Assembly (NCBI RefSeq): GCF_016863135.1
Contig: NZ_BOOH01000045.1
Location: forward strand, 1-64,000
Source: Planobispora longispora
GTDB taxonomy: Bacteria; Actinomycetota; Actinomycetes; Streptosporangiales; Streptosporangiaceae
Length of the DNA: 64,000 bases
Direction of reading: 5' to 3'
Under the pieces are notes generated by a model. The model worked only from the letters and a program-made list of their open reading frames with translations. It searched no databases and was not told the DNA's origin. This document shows, piece by piece, positions 16,861-21,110 of the stretch (the first letter of the stretch is position 1; each line of letters begins with the position of its first letter). A program made the position numbers and the translations under genes.

Positions 16861-16889
16861 TTGACTCCGCCCTCTGTTATTCTCATACT
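16861..16889 (+). promoter_or_regulatory. Predicted promoter of the NUDIX/J-kinase/VWA/PurA-like operon
   Basis: TTGACT (16861-16866) and CATACT (16884-16889) are separated by 17 bases, a good fit to a housekeeping sigma promoter. Transcription would begin near 16896, the middle of the overlapping palindrome. Confidence 0.55.
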
Positions 16890-16910
16890 GAGACTATCTC
16901 AGATTGAGAA
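16880..16910. promoter_or_regulatory. 31-base palindromic operator, probably bound by the NUDIX regulator it precedes
   Basis: Nested inverted arms: outer TTCTCA/TGAGAA and inner CTGAGA/TCTCAG, centred on 16895. Twelve of fifteen base pairs are symmetric. It covers the predicted -10 box, the transcription start and the ribosome site of the NrtR-like gene. Autoregulation by that protein is inferred from position and family habit. Confidence 0.7.
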
Positions 16911-16918
16911 GGACTGGC

Positions 16919-17653
16919 ATGGATGAACGCGAGTATCTGGCGGCCTACGACCCCCGGGCATATCCGGCGATCGCCGTGACCGTCGACGTGGTCGCGCTCA
17001 CGATCATCGGGGGCGTGCTGCACGTGCTCCTGGTCGAGCGGGGGGAACCGCCCTTCCTGGGGCGGTGGGCGCTGCCCGGCGGGTTCATCCGGCCCGGAGA
17101 GGATCTGGACGAGGCCGCGGCCAGGGAACTGGCCGAGGAGACGGGCATGACCGACCGGGTCCACATCGAGCAGCTGGCCAGCTACGGATCACCGGGCCGC
17201 GATCCCCGGATGCGGGTCGTGTCGATCTCCTACCTGGCCTTCGCCCCCGACCTGCCCGACCCGCAGGCGGGCTCCGACGCCACCGACGCCGCATGGTACG
17301 GCGTGGACCGCCTGCCGAAGCTCGCGTTCGACCACGAGCGCATCCTGGGGCATGCGCTTGAGCGGGCGCGGGCCAAGCTGGAGTACACCCCGCTGGCCAC
17401 CGCGTTCGTGGGCCCGATGTTCACGATCTCCGAACTGCGCGGGGTCTACGAGGCGGTGTGGGGGGCGCCGCTGCACGCGGGCAACTTCCACCGCAAGGTC
17501 CTGTCGGTCCCCGGGTTCGTGGAGAGCACCGGCGAGACCACCGAGAGCGGCGGAGCCCGGGGCGGCCCGCGGGCCAAGCTCTACCGCGCGGGGGACGCCC
17601 GGCTCCTCCATCCCGCTCTGCTGCGGCCGGAGCGGGAGGAGGAGATCCGGTGA
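16919..17653 (+). CDS. NrtR-type transcriptional regulator (NUDIX domain plus winged helix)
   Basis: A 244-residue protein. The N-terminal NUDIX domain has an intact Nudix box (GFIRPGEDLDEAAARELAEE then TGM, about residues 58-80). The C-terminal winged helix is of NrtR type (FTISELRGVYEAVWG ... NFHRKVLSVPGFV). Known NrtR proteins repress NAD-related genes and respond to ADP-ribose. The intact box means hydrolysis is still possible here. The ATG at 16919 is chosen because GAGAAGGA precedes it. The 31-base palindrome overlaps that ribosome site. It is the first gene of a four-gene operon with a J-domain/kinase-like protein, a VWA protein and a PurA paralogue. It therefore probably senses a nucleotide-like ligand that gates the operon. 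Confidence 0.85.
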   Translation: MDEREYLAAYDPRAYPAIAVTVDVVALTIIGGVLHVLLVERGEPPFLGRWALPGGFIRPGEDLDEAAARELAEETGMTDRVHIEQLASYGSPGRDPRMRVVSISYLAFAPDLPDPQAGSDATDAAWYGVDRLPKLAFDHERILGHALERARAKLEYTPLATAFVGPMFTISELRGVYEAVWGAPLHAGNFHRKVLSVPGFVESTGETTESGGARGGPRAKLYRAGDARLLHPALLRPEREEEIR

Positions 17654-17765
17654 GCACGACGGCGACCGCGCCGAGGGGGACCCGATGACCATGACCGCGA
17701 CCGGACCGAGGGGAGATCCGATGACCGACGAACCCACCGGGGCCAGAGGAGACCCGGTGACCACG
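17637..17765 (+). repeat. 35/36-base tandem repeat, each unit with a ribosome site and a start codon
   Basis: Four degenerate units place a purine-rich GAGGGGA-like site just before GTG 17650, ATG 17685, ATG 17721 and GTG 17757. Spacing is 35, 36 and 36 bases. The first unit covers the stop of the NUDIX gene. The one-base-short first step puts GTG 17650 out of frame with the other three. Confidence 0.75.
17650..17688 (+). CDS. Possible 12-codon coupling mini-ORF
   Basis: GTG at 17650 overlaps the NUDIX stop (GTGA). The frame (VSTTATAPRGTR) ends at a TGA that overlaps ATG 17685 of the next gene (ATGA). It may be only a by-product of the repeat, but its placement would pass ribosomes from one gene to the next. 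Confidence 0.35.
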   Translation: MSTTATAPRGTR

Positions 17766-18785
17766 ACCGCCGAGGCGATCGCCCTGGTGAAGGCCGCCGT
17801 GGATCCGCAGGACCTGTTCTCCGGGGACGCCCCGGAGCGCACCTACCGGCGGCTCGCCCGGCTCCTCCACCCCGATCTCGCCTCCGGTCCGGACGCCGCG
17901 GCCGCCTTCGTCAGGCTGGCCCGGCTCTGGGCGGCCCGCCACGGGAGCGCGGGCCGTCCGAGAACGATCACCACCGGGCGGGGGACCTACCGGATCGCCG
18001 GGGTTCACCGGCGGGGCTCCACCGCCGTGCTCTACAAGACCGGCGGGGACACCCTGGTCAAGCTGGTCCGGAGCCCGGCCGACAACGACCTCCTCCGGCG
18101 CGAGGCCGACGCGCTCAGAACGATCGAGCGCAAGGGCGTTCCCCTGCTCCTGCCGTACGTGCCCCGGCTGGTGGAGTCGTTCCGCTACCGTTCGGGCGGG
18201 GTGGAGCGGCAGGCCAACGTGATCAGCAGGGTGCCGGACGGGTTCCTGACCCTGGACGAGATCACCCGGCGGCGGTCACCGCTGGACCCGCGGGACGCGG
18301 CGTGGATCTGGCGGCGGCTGCTGGTGGCGGTCGGCGTGGCCCACCGCGCCGGGATCGCGCACGGCGCCGTCTTCGGCCACCACGTGCTGGTCCACCCGAT
18401 CGAGCACGGCCTGGTCCTGATCGACTGGAGCCAGTCGGCGCCGCTGGGCACGCCGCTGACCGCCCTGGTGACACGGCACCGCGACGACTACCCGCCCGGC
18501 GTCCTCGCCCGGGAACCGGTCACCGAGACCCTCGACATCCGCCTCGCCACCCGCTGCGTCGCCACGCTCATGGGCTACCGCGCCGGCCGTCCCGCCGCCC
18601 CCGGCGGGCGCGGCCCGGCCCAGGACCCCGGAGGCGCCCCCCGCGGCGTCCCCGCCCGGATGCGCGCCTTCATCAGGGGAAGCCTGCTGAGCCCTCCGCG
18701 TGACGCCTGGGGACTCCTCGCCGAGCTCGACGAACTCCTCGACGACCTCTACGGCCCACGGCTGTACCGCCCCCTCCACCTGTGA
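17685..18785 (+). CDS. J-domain plus degenerate protein-kinase-like protein
   Basis: A 366-residue protein joining two domains. Residues about 40-90 look like a DnaJ J-domain (LARLLHPDLASGPD, HPD at 62-64). From about residue 100 there is a kinase fold with beta-3 Lys126 (TLVKLV) and Asp247 (LIDWS, at the DFG position). The catalytic loop reads IAHGAVFGHHVLVHP: the HRD Asp is Ala228 and the Asn is His. Phosphotransfer is thus doubtful, and it may bind nucleotide or client protein as a pseudokinase. Start choice is hard: ATG 17685, ATG 17721 and GTG 17757 are all in frame, each with its own ribosome site. The J domain begins after the last one. The VWA gene follows 31 bases later. Confidence 0.75.
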   Translation: MTMTATGPRGDPMTDEPTGARGDPVTTTAEAIALVKAAVDPQDLFSGDAPERTYRRLARLLHPDLASGPDAAAAFVRLARLWAARHGSAGRPRTITTGRGTYRIAGVHRRGSTAVLYKTGGDTLVKLVRSPADNDLLRREADALRTIERKGVPLLLPYVPRLVESFRYRSGGVERQANVISRVPDGFLTLDEITRRRSPLDPRDAAWIWRRLLVAVGVAHRAGIAHGAVFGHHVLVHPIEHGLVLIDWSQSAPLGTPLTALVTRHRDDYPPGVLAREPVTETLDIRLATRCVATLMGYRAGRPAAPGGRGPAQDPGGAPRGVPARMRAFIRGSLLSPPRDAWGLLAELDELLDDLYGPRLYRPLHL

Positions 18786-18816
18786 CAAGCCTGACACCCG
18801 CGAGACGGAGACCCCC

Positions 18817-19776
18817 ATGGGAAGCGGAATCTGGTCCACCGACGTATACACCGCGGCCAAGCGCCTGCGCGCGGTCAGCGGCGCCAGCGCCTTCGCCTAC
18901 AGCGACGGCGGCGCCCGCACCGTGCACGCCGATCTCGACCCCCACGGCGTGACGGCCCGCGAGAGCCGCGACTCCGACGAGCACCCCGCCTCGCTGGCCG
19001 TCGCCGTGCTCTTCGACGTGACCGGCTCGATGGGCGACGTGCCGCGCACACTCCAGACCAAGCTGCCCGACCTGCTCGGCCTGCTGCTGCGCAAGGGGTA
19101 CGCCACCGACCCGCAGATCCTGTTCGGCGCGATCGGCGACGCCACCTGCGACCGGGCGCCGCTGCAGATGGGGCAGTTCGAGTCTGACAACCGCATGGAC
19201 GGGCACCTCGGCAACATCCTGCTGGAGGGCGGAGGCGGCGGGCAGATGAGCGAGTCCTACGAGCTCGCCATGTACTTCATGGCCCGGCACACCTCGATCG
19301 ACTGCCTCGAGAAGCGGGGACGGCGGGGCTACCTGTTCATCATCGGGGACGAGCTCCCCTACCCGAAGGTGAGCCGCCACCAGGTCGCCGCGGTCATCGG
19401 CGACCACCTGGAGCGCGACATCCCCATCACCGACGTCGTCGCCGAGCTGACCCGCATGTACGACGTCTACTACATCATCCCCGCCGGGGCGTACCACGCC
19501 GGGGAGGGCAAGGTGCTCAAGCGCTGGCGCGAGCTGCTCGGACAGAACGTCCTGGAGCTCGACGACCTGAGCATGGTCTGCGAGACCATCGCGCTCACCG
19601 TGGGGCTCGGCGAGGCCGCCATCGACCTCGACGAAGGTCTCAGCGACCTGGACGACCTCGGCTCCGCCGCCGGGGCCGCGGTCTCCAGGGCACTGGCCAG
19701 ACTGGACCGCGGCGCGCTCGTGGTGGACGACGGGCCCGGTCTCGAGATCGGCGAGAGCGGGGTGACGCGGCTGTGA
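18817..19776 (+). CDS. VWA-like domain protein with MIDAS motif
   Basis: A 319-residue soluble protein. The von Willebrand A-type metal site is seen in LFDVTGSMGDVP (Asp67, Gly70, Ser71; the usual first Ser is Thr). Further acidic positions lie in GAIGDATCD and FIIGDELPY. It has a Gly-rich loop (LLEGGGGGQMSESYELA) and an acidic tail. No signal peptide is present. Such cytoplasmic VWA proteins usually act as metal-dependent protein-protein adaptors, often with ATPases or chaperones. The J-domain partner upstream fits that. The ATG at 18817 is chosen because the conserved-looking MGSGIWSTDVY starts there. The last codons overlap the PurA-like ATG by four bases (GTGA/ATG region), so the genes are coupled. 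Confidence 0.8.
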   Translation: MGSGIWSTDVYTAAKRLRAVSGASAFAYSDGGARTVHADLDPHGVTARESRDSDEHPASLAVAVLFDVTGSMGDVPRTLQTKLPDLLGLLLRKGYATDPQILFGAIGDATCDRAPLQMGQFESDNRMDGHLGNILLEGGGGGQMSESYELAMYFMARHTSIDCLEKRGRRGYLFIIGDELPYPKVSRHQVAAVIGDHLERDIPITDVVAELTRMYDVYYIIPAGAYHAGEGKVLKRWRELLGQNVLELDDLSMVCETIALTVGLGEAAIDLDEGLSDLDDLGSAAGAAVSRALARLDRGALVVDDGPGLEIGESGVTRL

Positions 19777-21110
19777 AAGATCACATGATCGTCGTCGATC
19801 TGGGGTACGGCGACGCCGGCAAGGGCGGCGTCGTGGACTGGCTCTGCGCCCGGGGCGACGTCACCGCCGTGATCAGGTTCAACGGGGGCGCGCAGGCCGG
19901 GCACAACGTCGTCCTGCCCGACGGACGGCACCACACGTTCGCGCAGTTCGGCTCCGGAACGTTCCGGGGCGTGCCCACCCATCTCTCCCGGCACATGGTG
20001 GTGGATCCCTTCGCGCTCTCCGCCGAGGCCGACCACCTGCGCCGTCTCGGCGTCTCCCAGCCGTACGGCATGCTCACGATCGACCGCGAGGCCCTGCTCG
20101 CCACGCCGTACCACATCGCGGCCGGACGGGACCGCGAGCGGGAACGCGGCGAGAGCCGGCACGGCTCCTGCGGGATGGGCGTCGGCGAGGTGATGGCCTA
20201 CGCGCTGGAGAACCCGTTCGTGGCTCCCAAGGTCGGCGACTGCGAGCGGCCCGGGCTGCTGGCGCAGAAGCTGAACCTGCTGCGCGACCGGCTCGGCGAC
20301 CGGATCGGCGCGGACGCGCCCCCGGTCGCCGACTGCCTCGCCGCCTACCTGGCCTTCGCCCAGCGGGTGCGGTTGGTCGATCCCTCCTACGTCAGCGAGC
20401 TGCTGCGCAGGCGCCCCGTGGTCTTCGAGGGCGCCCAGGGGGTGCTGCTCGACGAGTGGCACGGCTTCCACCCCCACACGACCTGGAGCACCACGACCTT
20501 CGACAACGCCTTCTCCCTGCTCGACGGGGAGCACGCCGTCCGGCTCGGCGTGCTGCGCACCTACACCCCCCGGCACGGGCCCGGCCCCCTGGTCACCGAG
20601 GACCCGGAGCTGAGCCTGCCCGAGCCGCACAACCGGTCCGGCCCCTGGCAGGGACCGTTCCGGATCGGCCACTTCGACGCCGTGGCGCACCGCTACGCCC
20701 TGGCGGCGGCGGGCGGGGTGGACCTGCTGGCCCTGACCCACCTGGACGCGCCGGTGTCGCGGATGTGCGACTCCTACGACATCGGCGAGCTCCCGGTGGA
20801 GGAGAAGAGCGAACCGGTCGACCAGGCCGGGCTCGCCGCCCGCCTGGCCCGGCAGTCCGAGCTCACCGCCCGGCTGGACAAGGCCCTGCCCCACTACGTG
20901 GACGGGATCAGCGACTGGCCCACGGCGGTCTCCGAGGCGCTGGGCGTGCGCGTCTGGCTCGGCTCCTCCGGCCCCACCGCCCACGCCAAGTCGCTGATCC
21001 CGTCCGCCTCGTCGCGGAAGACCGGGGTGAGTTTCATGGGGGGCGCGCGGGCGCTGCGGGAGCGGACGGAGCGGGCGGAGGCGGGCTACCGGGCGCTGCG
21101 CTGGGCGTGA
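19773..21110 (+). CDS. Adenylosuccinate synthetase (PurA) paralogue, divergent
   Basis: A 445-residue PurA-fold protein, slightly longer than housekeeping PurA (about 430). The GTP and catalytic loop is kept as GDAGKGG (Asp14), and catalytic His44 is kept in AGHN. The later FEGAQGVLLDEWHG and THLDA segments match the fold. The Arg-rich loop that grips aspartate in normal PurA (GRRRRTG) is replaced by WQGPFRIGHFDAV. The IMP-binding TTGRGIGP reads SCGMGVGE. A GTP-dependent phosphoryl-activation chemistry is therefore plausible, but with another nucleotide or amine substrate. It is the last gene of the NrtR-regulated operon. This is unlikely to be the purine-pathway PurA. The reading frame is intact. 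Confidence 0.82.
   Translation: MKDHMIVVDLGYGDAGKGGVVDWLCARGDVTAVIRFNGGAQAGHNVVLPDGRHHTFAQFGSGTFRGVPTHLSRHMVVDPFALSAEADHLRRLGVSQPYGMLTIDREALLATPYHIAAGRDRERERGESRHGSCGMGVGEVMAYALENPFVAPKVGDCERPGLLAQKLNLLRDRLGDRIGADAPPVADCLAAYLAFAQRVRLVDPSYVSELLRRRPVVFEGAQGVLLDEWHGFHPHTTWSTTTFDNAFSLLDGEHAVRLGVLRTYTPRHGPGPLVTEDPELSLPEPHNRSGPWQGPFRIGHFDAVAHRYALAAAGGVDLLALTHLDAPVSRMCDSYDIGELPVEEKSEPVDQAGLAARLARQSELTARLDKALPHYVDGISDWPTAVSEALGVRVWLGSSGPTAHAKSLIPSASSRKTGVSFMGGARALRERTERAEAGYRALRWA

Follow-up and report, generated by a model that had tools for sequence, protein, structure and literature searches.

Adenylosuccinate synthetase, the product of purA, has a phage-borne, redirected paralogue in PurZ, the 2-aminoadenylosuccinate synthetase of Z-DNA phages, which carries serine at position 13 according to an excerpt of PMC12884076. 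Regulators of the NrtR family, which join a NUDIX domain to an NrtR winged helix, have regulons in nicotinamide adenine dinucleotide (NAD) metabolism; operons that combine a NUDIX transcription factor with a vWA protein, with an adenosine diphosphate (ADP)-ribose theme, have been predicted around ARG domains (the NUDIX/WYL operons in the excerpted section 3.8 of PMC9503650); and phages have NAD salvage systems of their own (NAMPT/NMNAT, NARP1, NARP2). Here we describe a four-gene operon that shares features with each of these, found in a stretch of 64,000 nucleotides from Planobispora longispora (contig NZ_BOOH01000045.1, positions 1 to 64,000; hereafter, the window). On the + strand throughout, positions 16919-21110 encode an NrtR-type NUDIX regulator, a J-domain pseudokinase, a von Willebrand factor A (VWA)-like protein and a PurA-like enzyme, the same four co-directional genes that had been proposed from the letters of the window (the sequence-only reading). 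We report the gene set, its operator array, the conservation of its partners, the rewiring of the PurA-like active site and the sharing of the genes with phages, and argue that the PurA-like enzyme represents a predicted new PurA-fold family that is neither PurA nor PurZ.

The PurA-like protein of the window matches PF00709 above the cut-off (176 bits), the PDB matches listed for it are all adenylosuccinate synthetases and, as the sequence-only reading had stated, it keeps the GDAGKG loop and His44. To describe its active site, residues were counted in Escherichia coli PurA numbering across 168 sequences (that of the window, 70 actinobacterial, seven from named phage or plasmid records and 90 viral frames less than 95% identical to one another), after near-copies had been taken out and without selection for any motif. 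Along with the fold, the family shares with PurA Asp13 (166 of 168, the other two being gaps), Lys16 (167), His41 (167), Gln224 (168), Thr239 (163) and Asp333 (165), and Arg272 is likewise kept (168); Asp13 and Gln224 are residues that we take to face the base in PurA. It differs at the residues that presumably contact the 5'-phosphate of inosine monophosphate (IMP), with Asn38 kept in one sequence, Thr129 in five and Arg143 in seven. Asn38 is instead Gln in 166 sequences and Thr129 is Cys in 153, while Val273 is His in all 168 and Lys331 is His or Cys in 162.

The stretch that we take to be the aspartate loop (Thr301/Arg303/Arg305) is remade as well: Thr301 and Arg305 are found in 0/168 sequences, Arg306 is retained in 165/168, and the TTGRxRR motif occurs in none of 80 viral PurA-like loci. 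Arg aligned at position 303 was counted in 3/169 or 0/168 sequences, depending on the alignment, as the 169-row version (for which added viral rows needed GDxGKG and near-copies were included) places the 301-303 loop one column off the 168-row version; this stretch is mostly W-Q-G, with an exact register that differs between the two. In the profile alignment, positions 143 and 303 are also those at which 1cg3 and 1cg4 vary from the wild-type E. coli PurA chain. The altered substrate loops of the sequence-only reading are supported across the family. Taken together, these counts say that phosphoryl activation is probably retained and that recognition of the 5'-phosphate, ribose and aspartate has apparently been lost or rebuilt. 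Since several of the replacement residues are themselves fixed, the pattern speaks for a new substrate rather than decay.

Both NCBIfam PurA equivalog models leave the protein below their cut-offs (135 bits of 402 and 94 of 396). The host genome encodes a separate housekeeping purA (610 bits) beside the 176-bit PurA-like gene, and a normal purA is present in 20 of 20 genomes, host included and chosen from among the matches, that carry the PurA-like, VWA-like and pseudokinase genes (hereafter, the triad), their canonical copies scoring 590-615 bits. The PurA-like gene is therefore not the sole purA of its host, an outcome that would have undone the sequence-only reading had it been otherwise; unlike PurA, it is additional to the housekeeping copy and adjoins a VWA-like gene. 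A profile built from the PurA-like family separated the two kinds: among 118 genomes from the class, 10 score 422-545 bits, and all other matches are at or below 233 bits. In a 68-row tree, canonical PurAs formed a single clade (100/100), and bacterial PurA-like rows were interspersed with phage rows at more than one point, with starred branches forcing at least three changes of the bacterial label. This placement suggests that the gene may have been transferred between phages and bacteria more than once; finer claims from the tree are unsafe because of long branches and unsettled bootstrap values.

To determine which genes accompany the PurA-like enzyme, we collected 80 VWA-seeded loci, all from Actinobacteria as judged by record title and the best 80 of at least 547 confirmed candidates. 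An NrtR gene was found in 79, a pseudokinase in 77 and a PurA-like gene in 79, and the four genes are neighbours elsewhere, as the sequence-only reading needed them to be. Two of the loci with misses (L107 and L093) lie at contig ends; two others (L114 and L122) are uncut and hold NrtR, VWA and PurA-like genes with no pseudokinase match between them. Of 47 VWA-seeded viral loci, 44 have the PurA-like gene, 33 the pseudokinase and, by single-sequence search, four NrtR; the PurA-like gene was missed at L162, L187 and L188, the last two having partial VWA matches. Conversely, of 80 viral PurA-like loci (the best 80 of at least 515 confirmed), 76 contain VWA, 54 the pseudokinase, eight NAMPT, six NrtR and one NMNAT, and the four VWA misses (L223, L227, L244 and L275) begin at contig edges. 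The two viral sets share contigs, and as IMG/VR contigs are predicted viruses, named phage isolates provide the firmer evidence. The PurA-like/VWA pair is the core of the module and the pseudokinase a frequent third part. Clustering of viral neighbours, based on crude gene calling, revealed no further constant gene, and bacterial neighbour clusters track lineage, as with a Dabb-like gene in Streptosporangiaceae.

The module is widely shared. Among 394 genomes from the class, 43 match the VWA-like protein (41 after two weak matches of 26% identity were discounted), as do 2 of 246 genomes drawn from the phylum, host genome counted; within the family, the PurA-like protein is present in 40 of the 150 genomes (E <=1e-60). 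Plasmid records yielded 13 PurA-like (E <=1e-40) and 21 VWA matches (E <=1e-5), including Rhodococcus, Agrobacterium, Acetobacter and Variovorax. Triads also reside on alpha- and betaproteobacterial plasmids. Among phages, 207 records match VWA (188 Mycobacterium, 10 Rhizobium and six Vibrio among them) and 221 match the PurA fold (189 Mycobacterium), the latter with a weak tail of apparently canonical genes. Large phages carry the triad, including Mycobacterium phages; in Pleione (Bixzunavirus) the order is kinase, VWA, small gene, PurA-like.

We next describe the control region and genes of the operon in the window, which are laid out as follows.

16861..16889, + strand: promoter-like site TTGACT-17-CATACT (one found, where shuffled sequence gave 0.1 on average), its -10 hexamer within the operator
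16880..16910, no strand: operator of two CTCAnnnnGAG elements 16 bp apart, together one palindrome with 14-nucleotide arms, the right arm reaching into the ribosome-binding site
16919..17653, + strand: NrtR-type regulator of 244 amino acids, with a NUDIX domain whose Nudix box is intact by eye and an NrtR winged helix (PF00293 and PF21906 above cut-off)
17641..17782, + strand: four imperfect 35-nucleotide direct repeats, copies 2-4 being 63-77% identical to the first
17757..18785, + strand: J-domain pseudokinase, start picked from the ribosome-binding site and relatives
18817..19776, + strand: VWA-like protein of 319 amino acids with motifs DVTGSM, GDATCD, EGGGGGQ and GDE, outside any Pfam family
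19773..21110, + strand: PurA-like ligase family member of 445 amino acids, PurA fold match (PF00709) above cut-off

The single promoter of the sequence-only reading is matched by the one promoter-like site. The regulator scores 75 bits for NUDIX and 45 bits for NrtR_WHD and only 125 bits against the NCBIfam NrtR equivalog NF050029 (cut-off 400), which identifies it as a predicted member of the NrtR family and not as that equivalog. Among 81 regulator relatives, 47 have the strict Nudix box pattern, and 19 of the remaining 34 have a looser RE-x-x-EE. As in NrtR regulons, the site covers the promoter of the operon that encodes the regulator. The mycobacterial NrtR operator given in an excerpt of PMC6800001 is GTTTTCGA-N7-TCGAAAAC; here the operator is an array of CTCAnnnnGAG with a period of approximately 16 bp, and the downstream genes, unlike those of NrtR regulons, are not nad genes. 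The arms of the 31-bp site are 86% complementary. At least two CTCAnnnnGAG elements (loose match, 15-17 bp spacing) occur upstream of the NrtR gene at 68 of 79 loci, window included (81 candidates, namely 80 loci and the window, with two dropped for want of sequence or score), whereas only 3 of 5663 other blocks contain such a pair and none of 1580 mononucleotide shuffles does. Throughout the 8.8-Mb host genome, the only perfect operator matches are those of the 16880-16910 site, read on both strands; allowing two mismatches added three further operator-like places, and a reversed control pattern gave one match. As these perfect matches are the only ones, the predicted regulator appears dedicated to the four-gene operon.

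The kinase-like protein matches the kinase-like Kdo family of Pfam above its cut-off (34 bits) and, as the sequence-only reading had noted, its HRD aspartate is replaced by Ala (HGA) and it carries an HPD motif (LHPDL); the DnaJ match (PF00226, 16.2 bits) is below the cut-off of 27.8. In a 32-row alignment, the Lys and the alpha-C Glu are kept in all rows, Ala (30 rows) or Ser (two) stands in for the HRD aspartate, and the DFG aspartate is Gly in seven; as the HRD aspartate is replaced in every row, the protein is a predicted pseudokinase at the level of the whole family. The aligned J-domain H, P and D columns are kept in 26, 27 and 27 of the 32 rows, and in a cruder count by pattern, using 80 sequences of suitable length, 51 of the 55 bacterial pseudokinases and 15 of the 25 viral ones had [HY]PD; HRD triplets from this count were set aside as unreliable, since the pattern picked up an 'HRA' further upstream.

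The near-constant partner of the PurA-like family is an unnamed protein. Pfam and PADLOC gave no matches for the VWA-like protein of the window, and NCBIfam none above cut-off. Asp67, Thr69 and Gly70 of the metal ion-dependent adhesion site (MIDAS) are invariant over 47 family rows and Ser71 is present in at least 90%. Against YeaH, only the MIDAS stretch of the family profile aligns (probability 23%), the same is true against Ro (9%), and YehP and YehQ gave no match. The VWA label of the sequence-only reading draws on the MIDAS-type DVTGSM motif and a weak DUF444 match in one of the 47 members, and not on a fold.

We then asked whether the module is linked to NAD. Three kinds of observation point that way, namely the NrtR family of the regulator, a minority of phage clusters with NAMPT, and NUDIX/NrtR-like plasmid neighbours, and, weighed together with the points against it, they leave a NAD link at about even, with any one specific NAD chemistry well below even. 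As in phage NAD salvage, a few triad phages have NAMPT in the cluster: L165 has the order NrtR, VWA, NMNAT-NUDIX-like gene, NAMPT, PurA-like, pseudokinase, and L167 and L160 have NrtR, NAMPT, VWA, other small genes, PurA-like, pseudokinase. NAMPT at eight of the 80 viral PurA-like loci (seven if the matching pair L204/L205 is taken as one) compares with 1.3 expected by density (Poisson 0.0003). By record, NAMPT is found in eight of 46 triad-carrying records searched, four times within approximately 5 kb of the VWA gene compared to 0.37 expected (Poisson 0.0006, or 0.005 without the near-copy L167). A scan of 132 neighbour proteins gave NAMPT and NUDIX as the commonest families, with three each, and NADAR once. 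NUDIX/NrtR-like genes lie beside the triad on Agrobacterium, Acetobacter and Rhodococcus plasmids (three of four inspected; Variovorax had none).

Several points weigh against such a link. The NAMPT expectations take their density from the triad phages themselves and treat loci as independent, which they are not, and the NMNAT-NUDIX assignment at L165 comes from motifs and matches far below NCBIfam cut-offs (35 bits vs 409). NAMPT is missing from the flanks of 72 of the 80 viral PurA-like loci and gave no match in the 80 actinobacterial and four plasmid loci. In the reciprocal direction, four of 80 viral NAMPT loci (the best 80 of at least 558 confirmed) carry the triad; three of these lie on contigs that had seeded the query alignment, L315 is a twin of one such seed, and the triad is found in 0 of the remaining 76. 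A single-protein NAMPT scan likewise returned only the seeds and the L315 twin on the triad side. As its positives are seeds or a seed's twin, the reciprocal scan lends no support, and with no triad at the other 76 loci, NAMPT is an occasional rather than a general partner. Unlike phage NAD salvage systems, the triad itself is not NAMPT, NMNAT, Adps or Namat, though no search aimed at Adps was made. NrtR-family regulators can also govern non-NAD pathways, such as xylose genes (excerpt of PMC6800001). Two viral NAMPT loci, L317 and L350, have a high-scoring NrtR-type match and no triad in their flanks.

The explanation that we propose, tentatively and with slightly less than even confidence, is a self-repressed NrtR-type operon whose PurA-fold enzyme acts on a NAD-related molecule to repair or remodel the NAD/ADP-ribose pool. 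The NrtR-type protein would repress its own operon and, by analogy, release the operator as levels of ADP-ribose, or of a related product of NAD breakdown, go up. The PurA-like enzyme, probably working in complex with the VWA-like protein, would use its retained machinery to phosphorylate a lactam-type oxygen with a nucleotide triphosphate, activating a purine-like or other lactam group on a larger NAD-related molecule, which would then be joined to a partner other than aspartate; the pool would be repaired or remodelled as a result. The J-domain pseudokinase is perhaps an adenosine triphosphate-binding scaffold that brings in Hsp70. A sharper version, quite unlikely as a whole, holds that the PurA-like protein and its VWA partner form a new enzyme of the NAD pool, which phosphorylates and substitutes a lactam on a dinucleotide of the NAD or ADP-ribose type and thereby either repairs a deaminated cofactor or yields a variant of NAD unusable by host NADases, and that the pair is a phage metabolic counter-defence which bacteria acquired from phages more than once and put under an NrtR switch. 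One-step NAD synthesis from ADP-ribose and nicotinamide through a single phosphorylation was rejected on energetic grounds; NARP1 proceeds through a pyrophosphate intermediate (excerpt of PMC12774641). If the NAD link is true, the module would add new chemistry to the contest between phage and host over NAD.

A doubtful but substantial alternative is a protein-modifying system, in which the PurA-like enzyme would activate a protein amide or carboxylate, the VWA-like protein would bind the client, the J-domain pseudokinase would recruit Hsp70 and NrtR would merely report stress. The frequency of VWA beside the viral PurA-like gene and of [HY]PD in the pseudokinases, together with the lost small-molecule contacts of the enzyme, would fit such a system, as would the proposal in the excerpt of PMC9503650 that vWA proteins are peptide-binding chaperones in NUDIX-regulated operons. 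However, in several phage pseudokinases an HPD motif was not seen, our results gave no indication of a protein client, and the near-invariant Asp13 and Gln224, if they face the base as in PurA, fit a nucleobase-like substrate. We consider it unlikely that the module is instead a PurZ-like pathway whose product would be an altered (deoxy)nucleotide, either destined for phage DNA or serving as a metabolite, even though the family is rich in phages, has the PF00709 fold and bears a PurZ-like name in PHROGs and phage records. Position 13 is Asp, with no Ser in the 168 sequences, vs Ser in 147 PurZ phage sequences (excerpt of PMC12884076), and the PurZ model NF038379 gives 30 bits vs a cut-off of 300, on which grounds identity with PurZ was rejected; the absence of TTGRxRR and the NrtR-linked operon of bacteria also argue against the wider pathway.

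The name in question, '2-aminooxy adenylosuccinate synthetase', is used alongside 'PurA-like' in phage records (e.g. L190:5992-7320, Mycobacterium phages); it looks wrong because the Pleione protein, the one aligned, lacks both the aspartate loop and the PurZ serine. An ordinary purA paralogue, acting as a second adenylosuccinate synthetase induced by stress, would account for the fold and the catalytic Asp and His and is highly improbable; the separate housekeeping purA of all 20 genomes and the altered residues, among them the loss of Arg305, the near-complete loss of Arg143 and the different conserved loop in place of Thr301-Arg303, led us to reject it, and the failed equivalog cut-offs agree. 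Membership of a known defence system was also rejected, as PADLOC had no matches for the PurA-like protein either and gave only weak ones for the regulator (27 bits, PDC-S07) and the pseudokinase (26 bits, MkoA, with PD-T4-6 lower). Returning to the proposed NAD-related operon, the sequence-only reading had envisaged a nucleotide-sensing module that handles a modified nucleotide and a protein client; of this, a module under regulation whose PurA-fold enzyme has altered loops is supported, and the modified nucleotide and client stay conjectural.

Within the family libraries and open-access literature searched, both the module and the enzyme family are new. PHROGs holds its three families separately, named from PurA, from kinase and 'unknown', and no description of the four-gene set was found in the open-access literature, a scope outside which most subscription papers fall. 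Studies listing NUDIX, VWA and PurA-like genes together, to which the sequence-only reading had referred, were not found there; nearest are the operons around the ARG domain in PMC9503650, which in the excerpted text combine a NUDIX regulator and vWA without PurA. Conversely, the four genes here come without ARG, phosphatase or ARPP and have a PurA-like core and a J-domain pseudokinase. A conserved, widely shared family is annotated as adenylosuccinate synthetase in the phage and plasmid records examined, yet lacks the known aspartate and IMP-phosphate contacts. Its function is directly testable because the family occurs in M. smegmatis phages and cultured actinobacteria.

Some smaller features of these loci can be added. 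In Pleione, an annotated polynucleotide kinase gene lies directly upstream of the triad (L190:2290-2811), and another part of the genome has a gene annotated as encoding a Ro-like RNA-binding protein (L314:29633-31291). In Rhizobium phage TM40 (L192:905-3241), a HAD hydrolase, a ComF-like phosphoribosyltransferase and a NUDIX gene precede VWA and PurA-like by a few kb. Upstream of the operon in the window, the one large palindrome of the sequence-only reading proved to be two inverted repeats, the operator and, separate from it, a perfect GC-rich hairpin with 16-nucleotide arms (16809-16824/16829-16844); the hairpin is located behind an acyl-CoA-dehydrogenase-like gene and is possibly its terminator, though a terminator scan listed none there. 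The description of the genes as mostly coupled holds for VWA and PurA-like, whose stop and start overlap by 4 nucleotides, and does not hold for the pseudokinase, which most likely starts at GTG 17757, 103 nucleotides past the end of the regulator. Alternative in-frame ATGs are present at 17685, 17691 and 17721, and the 35-nucleotide repeats between the two genes contain start-like and ribosome-binding-site-like sequence, possibly providing several usable pseudokinase starts.

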